A model generated the notes under the pieces. That model searched no databases. It saw only the letters and a program-made list of their open reading frames with translations, and was not told where the DNA came from. A stretch of DNA of 35,576 nt from a virus, in the IMG/VR virus record IMGVR_UViG_3300020468_000028, positions 1-35,576 of that record; one strand, written 5' to 3'. The translations under genes were made by a program, and so were the position numbers. Shown here one piece after another: positions 1,893 through 29,167 of the stretch (within the stretch, counting starts at the first letter, position 1; the number at the start of each line of letters is the position of its first letter).

Positions 1893-3195
1893 TAATAACA
1901 ACAGTTCAAATGTGGTTGAACCTACAGTTAATGAAGAAACCAATACTGGATTAATGGGTAATCAAGATGGAGTTACAGACGTAATAGGGGGTGGAGATAG
2001 CACTCCTGTAAGTGGGACAGGTATATCTGAAGGTGACTCTGGGATGGGTGGCACTTCCGTTCCTACTGGTGATACCGGTGGTGGCACTTCCGTTCCTACT
2101 GGCGATCCTTTACCACCACCCCCACCACCACCACCACCACCTCAAATAAATATTGATGGGTTAGCTACTACGGCAGGAATGGATGCAGGATTTAGTGGGG
2201 TAAATACAAATCTTAATACAGGATTTGCAGATGTAGGAAATCAGTTAAATACATTAGGTACGGGGCAAACTAATCTTGCGGCAGGACAAGGAGTGTTAGC
2301 TTCGGGTATAGATACTGCTAATACTGGTATTGCCGGATTAGGAACAGATATTAGCAATTTAGGTACTAACGTAACAGATAGCGTAACTGCCCTTGATACG
2401 AAAATAGGGGATCAATTTACCGCAGCCGGAACTCAATTGGATACTGGTTTAGGTCAGATCGAAGACGTATTAAAATCTCAATTTGGTTTATCTACAGATC
2501 AAATAACAAAATTATCTCAAGATGTTCTTTCGGGTCAGACTTCTATAAATGAAGTTCTAGAGAGTATGTCAGGTAAACAAGATACTTACTATGGTGGTTT
2601 GGCAGAAGGTCAATCCAACATTCAATCAGGTCTAGGTGGATTGCAAACTAATCTTGGAGATCTACGAACCAAATACGATGCCGATACTAACCTTGCTAAT
2701 CAAACTCGTACAGATATGATGAATAACATTACTGGTGGTTTTGCAGAGAACAGAGAAGCTCGACAGATGAATGCTAACCAAGCATCAAGAGAGCGTTCCG
2801 CAACAGATGATCTTATAAGGCAAACGGCAACATCATCACCTACATCATCCCAAATTAGTTATGCAAACTCTGCTAGAAATATGGCAATGGGTGTAGGAGC
2901 TAATACCCCCGAAGGAGTAGCTATGCAGAATGATTTCCTTGCTAAATTAGGAGCAATGAGATCTTCAATTGGAAATCCTGGCTTAAATACCAACATTGCT
3001 CAAATGTATGCTGATATTACCAGTTCTTTCGACAATAACGGAAAACTTATAGCCGACGCTACTGACGGTGCAGGAAATAGAAAAGCAAGAGCAATCGATG
3101 CAAACGGAAATTTATTCATCGGTACGTTTAATAATGTTGGTCAGAGAACAGATCAAAAGGCTTTTAACCTCAATCAAGTTTTCTCATCAGTGTAA
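1879..3195 (+). CDS. low-complexity, repeat-rich virion-associated protein
   Basis: A 438-residue protein of unknown function. Residues 1-75 are Gly/Ser/Thr-rich and contain two copies of an 11-residue unit (GGTSVPTGD plus two residues; 33-bp period in the DNA at 2047 and 2080). A run of ten prolines follows (codons 2113-2142). Residues about 90-300 are a long series of quasi-repeats of the type 'NTGFADVGNQLNTLG', which look like an extended beta or coiled-coil shaft. The C-terminal part (about 290-438) is helical, with RDSAR- and ANQASRER-like basic-acidic stretches. It overlaps the previous gene by 14 nt and is followed after 9 nt by the lysozyme gene with a GGGAAT leader. Composition and position suggest a structural role (tail or internal protein). 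No domain was recognised. Confidence 0.6.
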   Translation: MGKGSNNNSSNVVEPTVNEETNTGLMGNQDGVTDVIGGGDSTPVSGTGISEGDSGMGGTSVPTGDTGGGTSVPTGDPLPPPPPPPPPPQINIDGLATTAGMDAGFSGVNTNLNTGFADVGNQLNTLGTGQTNLAAGQGVLASGIDTANTGIAGLGTDISNLGTNVTDSVTALDTKIGDQFTAAGTQLDTGLGQIEDVLKSQFGLSTDQITKLSQDVLSGQTSINEVLESMSGKQDTYYGGLAEGQSNIQSGLGGLQTNLGDLRTKYDADTNLANQTRTDMMNNITGGFAENREARQMNANQASRERSATDDLIRQTATSSPTSSQISYANSARNMAMGVGANTPEGVAMQNDFLAKLGAMRSSIGNPGLNTNIAQMYADITSSFDNNGKLIADATDGAGNRKARAIDANGNLFIGTFNNVGQRTDQKAFNLNQVFSSV

Positions 3196-13773: not shown

Positions 13774-13806
13774 AAATATATACACTAGCAATAAAGGAAA
13801 TATAAA

Positions 13807-25508: not shown

Positions 25509-25588
25509 GTATTAATTATAATAAAAGTTAGTGTTATATCTCTGGTTTAATTGCTTGTAAGTTATTGTAAATAAAACGTTTTAACTAA

Positions 25589-25627
25589 CCGAAGATGTCG
25601 GGAGTTCGAGTCTCTCATCACCCACCA
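25589..25627 (+). other. tRNA 3'-end segment, likely attP core
   Basis: The segment reads as the 3' end of a tRNA: T-arm GGGAG-TTCGAGT-CTCTC (25600-25616), seven acceptor bases ATCACCC, discriminator A and encoded CCA (25625-25627). No D-arm, anticodon arm or 5' acceptor strand is present upstream, so it is not a functional tRNA gene. It lies 120 bp beyond the 3' end of the integrase gene, the usual place of an attachment site. GATG before the T-arm could be the 3' side of a long variable arm, and GAGTTCGAGTCTC is common in tRNA-Leu, so a tRNA-Leu target is my best guess, held weakly. The core probably starts near 25589. Confidence 0.75.
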
Positions 25628-25746: not shown

Positions 25747-26961
25747 TTAGCCAAAAACCTTGTTGAGAGCATTGCTTCTCATCTTCGATGCCGCCCTTAA
25801 ATAGACCTGTACCATCTTAGGATCACGGTGTCCGGTTACACTCATAATCTCATCTCCAGACAGTCCATTTAAACCAAGGCGAGTAGCCCCTGTAGCACGG
25901 TTATCTCTCATCTGAAGGTGTTGCGGTATTCCTGCTGCAGAACGTACCTTATCAGTTGAATAGATAACGTTGTGTTTCGATAGACCTGTTCCTGTCGTTT
26001 CATAATTTATAAGAAAACCTTCGGGCCTGTCATCGATACAGCAAAACCTTTTTCTTTTTCCTAACCCGTTACCCGTGTATAGGGTTTCTCCTGCATCGAT
26101 CCTCGCTTTAATCTCCAACTCCCTCTCACGCACGAAATTTAAACGATCTACAAGGATTTTTAGGGAAGGGGATCTCATATCAAAGTCTAGGGTATTTGGG
26201 ATACCTTTATGAGAAATAGACTTTTGCTGAGTAAAGGTAAGAATACCGTCTTTTATATCGCTGTTCTTTAAATTTCGCATATCTCCTGGTCTCTGACACA
26301 AAGTGTTGCAAAACAGAGCAATCGTTCCAATCGAATGATGTCCTAATTCATCTGCCTTTGAGATAAAGTCCTCAAGTTGCTTATCTGACCAGATACCTCT
26401 TCCTTGACCTTTGTTCGGTACAGGTACTTCCAGTTCCTGCAAGGTAAACGGATTAAAGTTTACCCTGCTATGCTTAATCCCAACGTTATACACTCTTCGG
26501 AACACTTTATTAACGTGATAAACACGATGTTTTCCATGTTTGTGGGTAATTTCAACATTAAGCTTATCGACATACTCTCTCGTAATTGCTTTAAACTGGT
26601 ATTCTCCAAAAGTTTTGTTTGAGGATCTCACCATAAAATCCATGCCAAATTCCAAAAGTAATTTATAGTCACTTTGAGAGTTTGGTTTTAGTTTTAAAAA
26701 ATGAGTAGTGCCATAATAGTGATGTACCAATCCCCTGACTGATTGAGGATCAACAGTTACAGACTTTCTTTCTTTTCTCAACGCATTGTCCAAACGTTGA
26801 TTTATCTCAAAGGCATAGTCTGAAAGATCAGAAATATTTCTAAACACTTTATATTTAACTTTTAATAACCTTTTCATATCCGGTGAAGGTTGATGAGCAT
26901 AATAAGTACCGTCCTTCTTACTATCTCTTCGCTGACAATATTTTGGAAGTTTAACAGGCAT
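25747..26961 (-). CDS. int: tyrosine-family integrase
   Basis: A 404-residue site-specific recombinase that would integrate the phage at a host tRNA gene. N-terminal half: an arm-binding/SAM-like domain (about 70-170). Catalytic domain: R224 (CQRPGDMRNL), K247 (a candidate for the beta-hairpin lysine), R352-D-N-R355 with arginine where HxxR is usual, H378 (TGHRD) and Y387 (VQVYLRA). The R-K-[R]xxR-H-Y set is complete except for that His-to-Arg change, which is frequent in integrases. Start ATG 26961 follows AAGGAGATATAGGA. It has its own TTGACT promoter with the ACACTAGCAA box. Its 3' end faces the tRNA-like attP core. Confidence 0.93.
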   Translation of the reverse strand: MPVKLPKYCQRRDSKKDGTYYAHQPSPDMKRLLKVKYKVFRNISDLSDYAFEINQRLDNALRKERKSVTVDPQSVRGLVHHYYGTTHFLKLKPNSQSDYKLLLEFGMDFMVRSSNKTFGEYQFKAITREYVDKLNVEITHKHGKHRVYHVNKVFRRVYNVGIKHSRVNFNPFTLQELEVPVPNKGQGRGIWSDKQLEDFISKADELGHHSIGTIALFCNTLCQRPGDMRNLKNSDIKDGILTFTQQKSISHKGIPNTLDFDMRSPSLKILVDRLNFVRERELEIKARIDAGETLYTGNGLGKRKRFCCIDDRPEGFLINYETTGTGLSKHNVIYSTDKVRSAAGIPQHLQMRDNRATGATRLGLNGLSGDEIMSVTGHRDPKMVQVYLRAASKMRSNALNKVFG

Positions 26962-26973
26962 TCCTATATCTCC

Positions 26974-27024
26974 TTGCTAGTGTGTCTCGAATCCTTTTTT
27001 AAAGTAACACTAGCTATAAGTCAA
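26974..27024 (-). promoter_or_regulatory. integrase promoter with inverted ACACTAGC boxes
   Basis: On the minus strand TTGACT (27024-27019), 17-bp spacer, TAAAAA (27001-26996), then ACACTAGCAA (26983-26974). A second, oppositely oriented ACACTAGC (27007-27014) lies in the spacer, so the two boxes form an inverted pair with 23 bp between them, spanning the -10. That arrangement would suit an operator. Confidence 0.7.
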
Positions 27025-27031
27025 TCTATGC

Positions 27032-27060
27032 TTGCAACTATGTTGCGAATCACTTATACA
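27032..27060 (+). promoter_or_regulatory. plus-strand promoter of the candidate small RNA
   Basis: TTGCAA (27032-27037), exactly 17 bp, TATACA (27055-27060). It is back to back with the integrase promoter. No protein gene follows; the transcript would run into the terminator at 27143. Confidence 0.65.
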
Positions 27061-27066
27061 GTTACT

Positions 27067-27182
27067 GTTACTTACGGTTGTTAACAGCGGCTTGTTAATG
27101 TATCCTTCCGTAAGTAGCATATTCATATACTTTCCTCCCTTTTGCCCTGTAGTTTATTTCCTTTCCTACAGGGCATTTTTTT
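27067..27182 (+). ncRNA. candidate phage small regulatory RNA (about 116 nt)
   Basis: A transcript from the promoter at 27032 would begin at about 27067. Its 5' end folds as a nested hairpin: TACTTACGG (27069-27077) with CCGTAAGTA (27108-27116), and inside it TTAACA (27081-27086) with TGTTAA (27093-27098) around a six-base loop. A single-stranded C/U-rich stretch with TTTCCTCCC (27131-27139) follows. The end is an intrinsic terminator, TGCCCTGTAG/CTACAGGGCA, whose loop TTTATTTCCTTTC is complementary to the GAAAGGAAA leaders of several early genes. Hairpin, unpaired C/U region and U-tailed terminator are the usual small-RNA layout. The only ORF (ATG 27099) has no ribosome-binding site and runs through the terminator. 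Targets are inferred. Confidence 0.55.
27143..27182 (+). terminator. strong intrinsic terminator of the candidate small RNA
   Basis: A perfect 10-bp stem, TGCCCTGTAG (27143-27152) with CTACAGGGCA (27166-27175), is followed by seven T residues. It points along the plus strand, where no protein gene precedes it. Confidence 0.85.
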
Positions 27183-27203: not shown

Positions 27204-27234
27204 CACATAAAAAAACACCCCCGAAGGGATGTTT
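27204..27234 (-). terminator. intrinsic terminator of the small early gene cluster
   Basis: On the minus strand AAACATCCC-TTCG-GGGGTGTTT with a stable UUCG-type loop is followed by a run of seven T residues. It lies 27 bp beyond the stop of the 95-aa gene, so it ends the cluster running from 29414. Confidence 0.85.
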
Positions 27235-27248
27235 CCTTTTACTGCTCT

Positions 27249-27258
27249 TTGCTAGTGT
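27249..27258 (-). other. orphan start-site box before a terminator
   Basis: ACACTAGCAA on the minus strand, then AAAAGGAAA, then the terminator at 27204-27234, without an open frame. It begins two bases after the stop codon of the 95-aa gene. A weak promoter, TTTCAA-17 bp-TAAACA, could make a transcript of about 50 nt. Confidence 0.4.
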
Positions 27259-27260
27259 GT

Positions 27261-27548
27261 TTATTTTTTCTGTTTCTTAGTTGAAATTACTGTTTCGCCA
27301 GTAACAGAATTTTTATATGCCATGCCCCAAGGGTGTTTTTGGTTTGAAACATCAGCTTCGTTAAAACATACTCTTACTAACGTTTGGTCAAAGTATTCAG
27401 TAACTTCAGTTGGTGTTGCAATCCAAGTATCTGTTGACAGAGAAAGTACGGAAGCATCTTTCTTTTGTTTCTTCACAAGTTCAACAGCGTGATCAATGGC
27501 ATCTGCCAATTCAAGTGCTTGTTGCGTGTTGAGAAATGTTGTTGGCAT
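27261..27548 (-). CDS. small hypothetical early protein
   Basis: A 95-residue protein: an N-terminal helix (NTQQALELADAIDHAVELVKKQ) followed by a beta-rich half (ASVLSLSTDTWIATP, EYFDQTLVRVCFNEAD, WGMAYKNSVTGETVIST) and a basic KKQKK end. ATG 27548 overlaps the preceding 80-aa frame by 38 nt; GAGGGG nine bases upstream is a tolerable ribosome-binding site. No family recognised. It is the last gene before the cluster terminator. Confidence 0.6.
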   Translation of the reverse strand: MPTTFLNTQQALELADAIDHAVELVKKQKKDASVLSLSTDTWIATPTEVTEYFDQTLVRVCFNEADVSNQKHPWGMAYKNSVTGETVISTKKQKK

Positions 27549-28062: not shown

Positions 28063-28338
28063 TTATTCTCCTTTCTTAATAGGTTTAAATCTTGACAGGT
28101 CTAAATACTCTTCCCACTCCTCTACGATTGCTTCCTCAGTATACGTTGATTCTAATGGAAGTATGTTCACTATAAGTTCATCACCATGCTCACTCGACAA
28201 TCGTTCTAGTTTTTTGCAAGTTGCTTCAGCATCAAGAGGTGAAGCGAAAGGATAAAGCCAAGTGTCTCCATGACCATCAACCACGGTTAAAATGGATCTT
28301 ACTTTTTGTTTTTTACCAAGAATAAATACATCAGGCAT
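28063..28338 (-). CDS. small hypothetical early protein
   Basis: A 91-residue alpha/beta protein: strands KVRSILTVVDGHGDTWLYPFASP, a helix LDAEATCKKLERLSSEHG, a strand DELIVNILPLES, then an acidic helix and KPIKKGE. The beta-beta-alpha-beta order recalls small ferredoxin-like phage proteins but no family was recognised. Start and upstream stop overlap by one base, in the duplicated junction GGAGAGTGTGTAATG. Confidence 0.6.
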   Translation of the reverse strand: MPDVFILGKKQKVRSILTVVDGHGDTWLYPFASPLDAEATCKKLERLSSEHGDELIVNILPLESTYTEEAIVEEWEEYLDLSRFKPIKKGE

Positions 28339-28631
28339 TACACACTCTCCATATAAATTTTATATGCTTGTGAACGATTTGATATATTCATTCGGCATTC
28401 GATGTTAAAAAGCATTTCCACATATTTTTTATCAAGAGAAAGTCTTTCTTTAATATATGTTTCTAAAACTTCTGGTGGAATCTTAAATTCATCAGCTAAA
28501 GCAGAAAAAACTTGAGTAAATTCTCCCTCGCAGATAATACCACCCCTTTCGATTGTCACCGTTCTAAAAGTGTGTCCTTTCGGATCATCCCTATAAATTT
28601 CATACGCTTGTGAAAGATTATCTATATTCAT
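28338..28631 (-). CDS. hypothetical protein with duplicated ends
   Basis: A 97-residue protein whose first 13 and last 16 residues are near copies: MNIDNLSQAYEIY and MNISNRSQAYKIY. The DNA copies (28592-28631 and 28352-28391) agree in 34 of 40 positions. Both are followed or preceded by the same GGAGAGTGTGTAATG junction, so a duplication of a gene start has been fused in frame. The middle (FRTVTIERGGIICEGEFTQVFSALADEFKIPPEVLETYIKERL) looks like a small alpha/beta or helix-turn-helix unit. Function unknown. Confidence 0.6.
   Translation of the reverse strand: MNIDNLSQAYEIYRDDPKGHTFRTVTIERGGIICEGEFTQVFSALADEFKIPPEVLETYIKERLSLDKKYVEMLFNIECRMNISNRSQAYKIYMESV
28352..28391 (-). repeat. direct repeat of gene start, copy at 3' end
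   Basis: Forty bases matching 28592-28631 in 34 positions, same orientation. It encodes the C-terminal NISNRSQAYKIY of the 97-aa protein; the copy at 28592 encodes the N-terminal NIDNLSQAYEIY. Confidence 0.7.
28592..28631 (-). repeat. direct repeat of gene start, copy at 5' end
   Basis: Partner of the repeat at 28352-28391; both are bordered by ATTACACACTCTCC on the plus strand. Confidence 0.7.
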
Positions 28632-29167
28632 TACACACTCTCCTTCAATTTCGTTTCGATATTTTTAAGAAGAATTTCAGCGTTAGCTATCGAACTGTGG
28701 ACACTGCCTCTAGAAGCTTGGTAGAGAAGTCCTATACCGCCTTTGATTTTCCATTTTCTGATATTCTCTGGTTTATCATCTACCAGAATATTACTGCTTC
28801 CATCTATTGTGTTGGTTGCAAAGTTTTCTTTTTGAGATGTAAAGATGAGATTTTTAATGTCAGGCATAAAACCATGCTTTTTTAGCCATTTACGTTTCCA
28901 AAATGCCGAATTGTCTCTGTCATTTCTGAGTGGGCTAGAACAGATGCCCCAATTCACCGTATATTTCCTTGAAAGTTCATCTACTCCTTTAACCAGAGTT
29001 TCAGAACTTGAAAATGCTTCTAGCTTGTAGAAAAAATCAGTATTTCTAAGTCTAGATAAAGCTTCTTCGTGGTCTTCTATGTATTTCCAATGTGACCTAT
29101 CGTTGTCACTTGCGTACTTCTTAAAGAAGTCGGCTAGGACACCATCCATATCTAAATATATTATCAT
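28631..29167 (-). CDS. HAD-family 5'(3')-deoxyribonucleotidase-like phosphatase
   Basis: A 178-residue HAD phosphatase. Motif I is D6-x-D8-GVLADF at the N-terminus (nucleophile and acid/base). Motif II is probably the CSSP loop (about 76-79), motif III a lysine such as in SQKEN, and motif IV ILVDDKPENI (about 127-136). Size and the cap-like helical insert after DGVLADF match phage 5'-deoxynucleotidases (NT5C-like), which dephosphorylate dNMPs and balance pools with RNR and MazG. It is translated with the neighbouring small genes (one-base overlap downstream, one-base gap upstream). Confidence 0.85.
   Translation of the reverse strand: MIIYLDMDGVLADFFKKYASDNDRSHWKYIEDHEEALSRLRNTDFFYKLEAFSSSETLVKGVDELSRKYTVNWGICSSPLRNDRDNSAFWKRKWLKKHGFMPDIKNLIFTSQKENFATNTIDGSSNILVDDKPENIRKWKIKGGIGLLYQASRGSVHSSIANAEILLKNIETKLKESV

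Follow-up and report, generated by a model that had tools for sequence, protein, structure and literature searches.

The sequence analysed here, which we call the window, is the whole of a 35,576-base virus contig (IMG/VR record IMGVR_UViG_3300020468_000028). Its DNA polymerase was 53-56% identical over the full length to those of the Roseobacter phages CRP-3, CRP-212, CRP-235 and CRP-738, and its integrase was 27-29% identical to the integrases of CRP-3, CRP-212 and CRP-235, so judging by these identities the window is a temperate marine phage of the HMO-2011 type, a group described as dominant and widespread in the ocean (PMC9038755). The intergenic gap between the integrase promoter region and the terminator of the gene at 27261-27548 (-) holds a predicted small-RNA gene, and the features of this part of the window are given below.

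25588-25627 (+): probable attP core, 40 nt, outside the RNA gene, identical to the 3' half of a tRNA-Val(UAC) gene
25747-26961 (-): tyrosine integrase, 404 aa (Pfam PF00589 slightly under the cut-off; PHROG 1, E 1.8e-23)
26996-27024 (-): predicted divergent integrase promoter, TTGACT, 17 bp, TAAAAA (sequence; GTCAA in relatives)
27032-27060 (+): predicted small-RNA promoter, TTGCAA, 17 bp, TATACA (sequence; layout recurs at the equivalent place in relatives)
27066-27119 (+): 5' nested hairpin, outer stem 27066-27077/27108-27119 (12 bp), inner stem 27080-27087/27092-27099
27067-27182 (+): predicted small RNA, about 116 nt, with its predicted start 7 bp past the -10 box and its end at the T run
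27131-27139 (+): predicted exposed anti-Shine-Dalgarno (anti-SD) segment UUUCCUCCC (TTTCCTCCC), conserved as CUCCC in relatives
27144-27182 (+): intrinsic terminator by sequence and fold, stem GCCCTGTAG/CTACAGGGC, seven T
27214-27232 (-): terminator hairpin of the gene at 27261-27548 (-), T run 27208-27214, converging on the RNA terminator (sequence)

Every element that the first-pass annotation had described at 27032-27182 (+), namely a promoter, a hairpin, a C/U-rich stretch and a terminator with seven T, was found in the sequence. The nested hairpin is present, and its outer stem has 12 pairs, so the 9 bp given earlier was too short. The two promoter boxes (TTGCAA, 27032-27037; TATACA, 27055-27060) are separated by a 17-bp spacer. 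A generic sigma-70 scan of the window did not list this promoter, and its support comes from the relatives, because they repeat a TTGCAT/TTGACA-like box, a spacer of 16-18 bp and a -10 box (TAnnnT). The -35 boxes of the integrase and RNA promoters stand back to back, 7 bp apart. The unpaired C/U-rich stretch of the RNA carries CUUUCCUCCC, and CCTCCC occurs a single time in the whole window, both strands taken together, in the segment at 27131-27139. The terminator (stem 27144-27152/27166-27174, seven T at 27176-27182) encloses the loop TTTATTTCCTTTC at 27153-27165, a possible second anti-SD site. The RNA folded at -36.0 kcal/mol, compared with -16.2 +/- 3.1 for shuffles (z = -6.45). An own promoter and an intrinsic terminator within an intergenic gap are the layout of a trans-acting small-RNA gene, and comparison of the relatives showed no conserved reading frame on either strand of the locus, as for a non-coding RNA.

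The 40 nt at 25588-25627, just past the integrase stop codon, match exactly the 3' half of a tRNA-Val(UAC) gene of bacteria, so this stretch is the probable attP. None of 385 alphaproteobacterial genomes contained a 28-nt piece of the stretch, and among 249 genomes of Pseudomonadota a 24-nt piece occurred in 2; given this rarity, the host of the window phage may therefore be outside the Alphaproteobacteria. A tRNA 3' end (AGGTTCAAATCCTACTCCCGCAAC) also lies downstream of the integrase in CRP-3, near 3184, and at relatives' loci L052, L060, L068, L260 and L274. The CRP-3 copy falls between the published att primers and is probably the tRNA-Met attP; CRP-3 integrates in the tRNA-Met gene of its cultured host, strain FZCC0040 (PMC6918029). 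The search for integrated copies in bacterial genomes gave only distant integrases of Azospirillum, a MAG and Paracoccus, and the upstream regions of the Azospirillum and MAG integrases were without the locus. Elsewhere in the window, two 45-nt copies (28348-28392 and 28588-28632) are 84% identical and contain the start regions of the adjacent genes 28063-28338 and 28338-28631 (-), which suggests a local duplication.

The window integrase as sole query gave no match among viral contigs and an alignment was required, so relatives were collected by two alignment-based scans, which yielded some 100 regions upstream of integrases, almost all of them IMG/VR records, or 62 once near-duplicates were taken out. 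Loci were located by synteny, the stems being too variable between clades for a covariance-model database search. In 44 of the 62 regions, among them those of the isolates CRP-3, CRP-212 and CRP-235, the strand opposite the integrase had a CTCCC with a strong terminator after it, against 2 of 62 on the integrase strand and a mean of 0.05 in shuffles. About 18 regions were without this signature; some of them had C-rich loop variants (L051 and L057, with ACCCCCUCU and ACACCCCUCU), and the integrase-upstream regions of CRP-738, L113 and L124 held nothing similar to the RNA locus. In the three isolates with the signature, the gap of about 250 bp between gene 1 and the integrase carries a hairpin, a CCTCCC(TGT) segment and a terminator opposite the integrase strand, and the T run of the RNA terminator converges on the gene 1 terminator, back to back as in the window.

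The linkage to the integrase was also seen with a descriptor scan. Thirteen long genomes had approximately one site per genome, usually adjoining the integrase. Among 188 integrase-bearing loci there were 92 integrase-adjacent matches (within 500 nt upstream) and 19 elsewhere, many of the latter being a tRNA 3' end, probably attP, while 66 loci without integrase (611 kb) gave a single match; some contigs enter these counts through more than one overlapping record. At L283 (about 3411, -) and L299 (about 1998, -), CCTTCCTCCCTGTAC plus a terminator lies some 530-580 nt upstream of the integrase. These are likely further family members beyond the 500-nt limit, and the family count is therefore slightly low. 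Of the 74 regions that had a promoter-like site, 64 carried GTCAA, the opposite strand of TTGAC, ahead of the RNA promoter, mostly at a distance of 13-15 bp. Direct repeats occur in both divergent promoter spacers of L033 (TGGACACCTAA), L051 (ATGACACTA) and L107 (TATTAGGTGGC), which suggests one regulator common to the integrase and the small RNA at these loci. A further pattern, GCCCTGTAG-N13-CTACAGGGC, was rejected as a probe, as all its 23 matches in viral contigs were one unrelated bidirectional terminator of other phages. The window's RNA is divergent, and it is placed in the family by its position, layout, motif and the loop shared with L061 (see below), not by overall sequence similarity.

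Structure was compared in A5, an alignment of six close members, which was chosen for the pair counts because the MAFFT alignments of divergent members (A3 and A4) put the stems out of register. In its four helices, 8 pairs had changed on both sides, 99.4% of the cells were paired, none of 500 shuffles was as good, and the signal was lost when the partner was slid by 1-3 columns. In a broader comparison of 31 loci with 22 distinct stems, 94.8% of cells paired, versus 45% with the arms exchanged (shuffled); this comparison was registered by hand around the motif and so leans towards structure. For the hairpin of the window itself no near relative was found, and the compensatory changes come from the other phages. 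The stem covariation that had been proposed as a check in marine phages is thus present there, and together with conservation and linkage it bears out the earlier proposal of a free-standing small-RNA gene beside the integrase. Comparison of sequences establishes the gene, its structure, its conservation and its integrase linkage, and we regard it as very likely that the small-RNA gene is real.

Across the family the stems drift while the loops keep CUCCC, for the most part in the form CUUCCUCCC, AUCCUCCCA or ACUUCUCCC; the window, CRP-3 and L117 have their CUCCC between the hairpins and not in a loop. Conservation of the C/U loop, also raised by the first-pass annotation, was confirmed in so far as CUCCC is kept in the loops or linkers of 44 of 62 regions, but the terminator loop is not a family-wide element. 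The window's terminator loop TTTATTTCCTTTC recurs on an unrelated stem in the divergent L061, and related loops occur in L062, L064, L077, L079 and L117, while many family members have plain tetraloop terminators. The recurrence in L061 gives some independent support to a role of the terminator loop, for part of the family only.

The explanation that we favour, with a probability of about 0.72 for the whole of it, is that the gene encodes a small non-coding RNA, about 116 nt long and acting in trans, one of a conserved family beside the integrase of HMO-2011-type marine phages, with anti-SD action and a role in lysogeny. It would be transcribed from a promoter of its own, divergent from that of the integrase, as far as its own terminator. 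Its stems would be scaffolds whose sequence drifts, and function would reside in the exposed pyrimidines, which are CUUUCCUCCC in the window and usually a CUCCC loop in other members; some members would have a second site in the terminator loop. The RNA most likely pairs with purine-rich Shine-Dalgarno (SD) regions and keeps ribosomes from binding, a mechanism shown for LhrC and NfeR1; taken by itself, we consider it likely that the RNA works as an anti-SD regulator. Against the favoured explanation speak the start regions of the own phage, which pair no better than expected, the 18 or so of 62 regions without the CTCCC and terminator signature, and the chance complementarity of C/U-rich loops to many SD sequences. 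The linkage to the integrase suggests action during establishment or maintenance of lysogeny, and the restriction to integrase-bearing phages fits such a role. We infer transcription, anti-SD action and the role in lysogeny from these comparisons, which make the RNA probably an unannotated translation regulator tied to the lysogenic life style. From the earlier interpretation, the conserved gene, the C/U-rich segments complementary to SD sequences and the stem covariation were retained, and the binding of particular leaders was not established.

These leaders bring in another reading, in which the RNA mainly represses genes of its own phage with AAAGGAAA leaders through its terminator loop, and sets an early/late or lysis/lysogeny switch. 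The six leaders listed by the first-pass annotation (13807, 25424, 29414, 29719, 33712 and 34883) each do contain 8-mers complementary to the terminator loop, the loop recurs in L061 and in similar form in the five other loci named above, and the terminator loop of LhrC can bind near a start codon. However, the leader complement of this loop is AAAGGA, which is the ordinary SD pattern of the window, and plain tetraloop terminators are common in the family. Pairing energies were compared with those of 400 shuffled loops, with start codons called by a simple script. Over the translation starts of the window the terminator loop was marginally better than shuffled loops (P about 0.07), which did not establish binding to the listed leaders, and the CUUUCCUCCC stretch was no better (P 0.83). 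Across 21 phages the loops paired no better with the starts of their own phage than with those of other phages (P about 0.18). These tests average over all starts, so that one or a few specific targets would be missed. We therefore hold this reading to be unlikely, and it is equally doubtful that the leaders named are the main targets; the lysis/lysogeny switch is a suggestion drawn from the integrase linkage.

The tail fibre was tried as a conserved target and rejected. Its ribosome-binding site CAGGGAG is unusually conserved (CRP-3 31306, CRP-212 34214, CRP-235 35147 and relatives) and offers a complement in these three isolates, yet the co-variation check failed, because the site is also kept where the RNA loop differs or is absent. 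Its conservation apparently comes from the coding end of the upstream gene.

A leader element of another kind, ACA(C/T)TAGCAA, was observed about 20-30 nt before start codons of the window, near predicted transcript starts, at 5 of 50 starts compared with 0.3 expected. Its sites are at 13783 (+), 26983 (-), 29445 (-), in the 31753 and 33712 leaders (+), and at 27258 (-), where no gene lies behind it. A related module, CACTAGCAA-AAGAGGAAA-N6-ATG, precedes genes in L051, L057, L060 and L125. The complement of the element, UUGCUAGU(G), is present in the small RNAs of relatives (L051, L057, L072, L077, L087, L095, L097, L102, L110 and L111), often within a hairpin, and this match may be RNA pairing or a shared DNA-binding site.

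A bolder form of the anti-SD proposal is that the RNA imitates the anti-SD tail of 16S rRNA, with interchangeable stems, and serves as a broad prophage clamp on the translation of phage or host mRNAs. We consider this rather improbable; if true, a clamp RNA of this kind would help to set lysogeny and superinfection immunity in a very abundant group of ocean phages.

The short C/U motifs are kept while a pairing preference for the own phage is absent, which would also fit an RNA whose C/U segments and U-rich tail titrate an RNA-binding protein, for instance a chaperone like Hfq or ProQ, in place of pairing with mRNAs; the phage small RNA VpdS is said in a review to compete for Hfq (PMC12197685). 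But the conserved core is the SD complement, as in small RNAs with proven pairing, and we judge titration to be improbable. Very improbable, in our view, is that the inverted repeats are DNA-level sites (attP, or binding sites of the integrase or a regulator) or bidirectional terminators and not an RNA gene. The region does adjoin the integrase and short repeats are found in the divergent promoters, but the tRNA-identical stretches (25588-25627 in the window, near 3184 in CRP-3) lie away from the element, which led us to reject an attP at the RNA locus, and the compensatory changes with a fixed loop, the single orientation of motif and T run, and the promoter at the expected distance fit an RNA. 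It is hardly credible that a small minus-strand gene upstream of the integrase (GGGAGGAAAGTATATG, 38 codons) uses the motif as its ribosome-binding site. A well-spaced GGGAGG and this frame are present in the window, but among 45 regions with GGGAG on that strand 29 had no start codon 3-13 nt downstream and in 14 the frame ran for just 1-14 codons. The T runs of the terminators point the opposite way, relatives do not conserve the 38-codon frame, and a leader peptide on the integrase strand was likewise rejected.

With the anti-SD small RNA as the preferred reading, we compared it with known RNAs. There was no Rfam match at threshold for the window RNA, and the papers on HMO-2011-type phages searched in open-licence full text mention no small RNA, the integrase-upstream gap being blank in the annotation. 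The family is thus of a design known in bacteria, and we found none described for this phage group in Rfam or in open-licence full text. The window matched the full-length LhrC model (RF00616, Listeria) at 26.5 bits, far from the gathering score of 110, with a likeness in the CUCCC...UUUU motif. LhrC, however, is a chromosomal multicopy RNA of Gram-positive bacteria under LisRK, whereas the window RNA is phage-borne, has no UCCC in its 5' loop, has UCCC only in the single-stranded stretch, and has UUUCCUUUC in the terminator loop.

Temperate phages have other small RNAs that act in lysogeny, induction or exclusion, such as lambda OOP, P22 sar, VP882 VpdS and svsR (PMC12197685, PMC12803456). 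Both OOP and sar overlap their targets in antisense, whereas the window RNA overlaps nothing; because it overlaps neither the integrase gene nor its predicted transcript, it is not an antisense RNA of the OOP/sar type, nor an integrase leader. None of these four is described in PMC12197685 or PMC12803456 as an integrase-linked anti-SD RNA.

Also similar in design are the Cuckoo/alpha-r14 RNAs (NfeR1) and suhB/mmgR (RF00519) of Alphaproteobacteria, which likewise are hairpins with variable stems presenting an anti-SD motif; NfeR1 acts through redundant anti-SD loops (PMC10746234), and some of the relatives' RNAs carry two or three C-rich loops like those of Cuckoo/alpha-r14. Cuckoo/alpha-r14 RNAs have three hairpins, each with the ultraconserved CCUCCUCCC, which is absent in the window, where there is one CCUCCC and two hairpins. 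The suhB/mmgR model had no match in the window and gave 20.3 bits of 41 (gathering) in the CRP-212 region (E 0.037). The window RNA differs from both in being phage-borne and integrase-linked, and we take the LhrC and suhB matches as a likeness in design and not as a sign that the RNA belongs to either family. An integrase-linked small RNA offers a directly testable way into lysogeny control in HMO-2011-type phages, and a system for such tests is at hand in CRP-3 and the cultured host in which it integrates (PMC6918029). Free stems combined with fixed anti-SD loops in a phage lineage would clearly exemplify a small-RNA design that hosts and Gram-positive bacteria also use.
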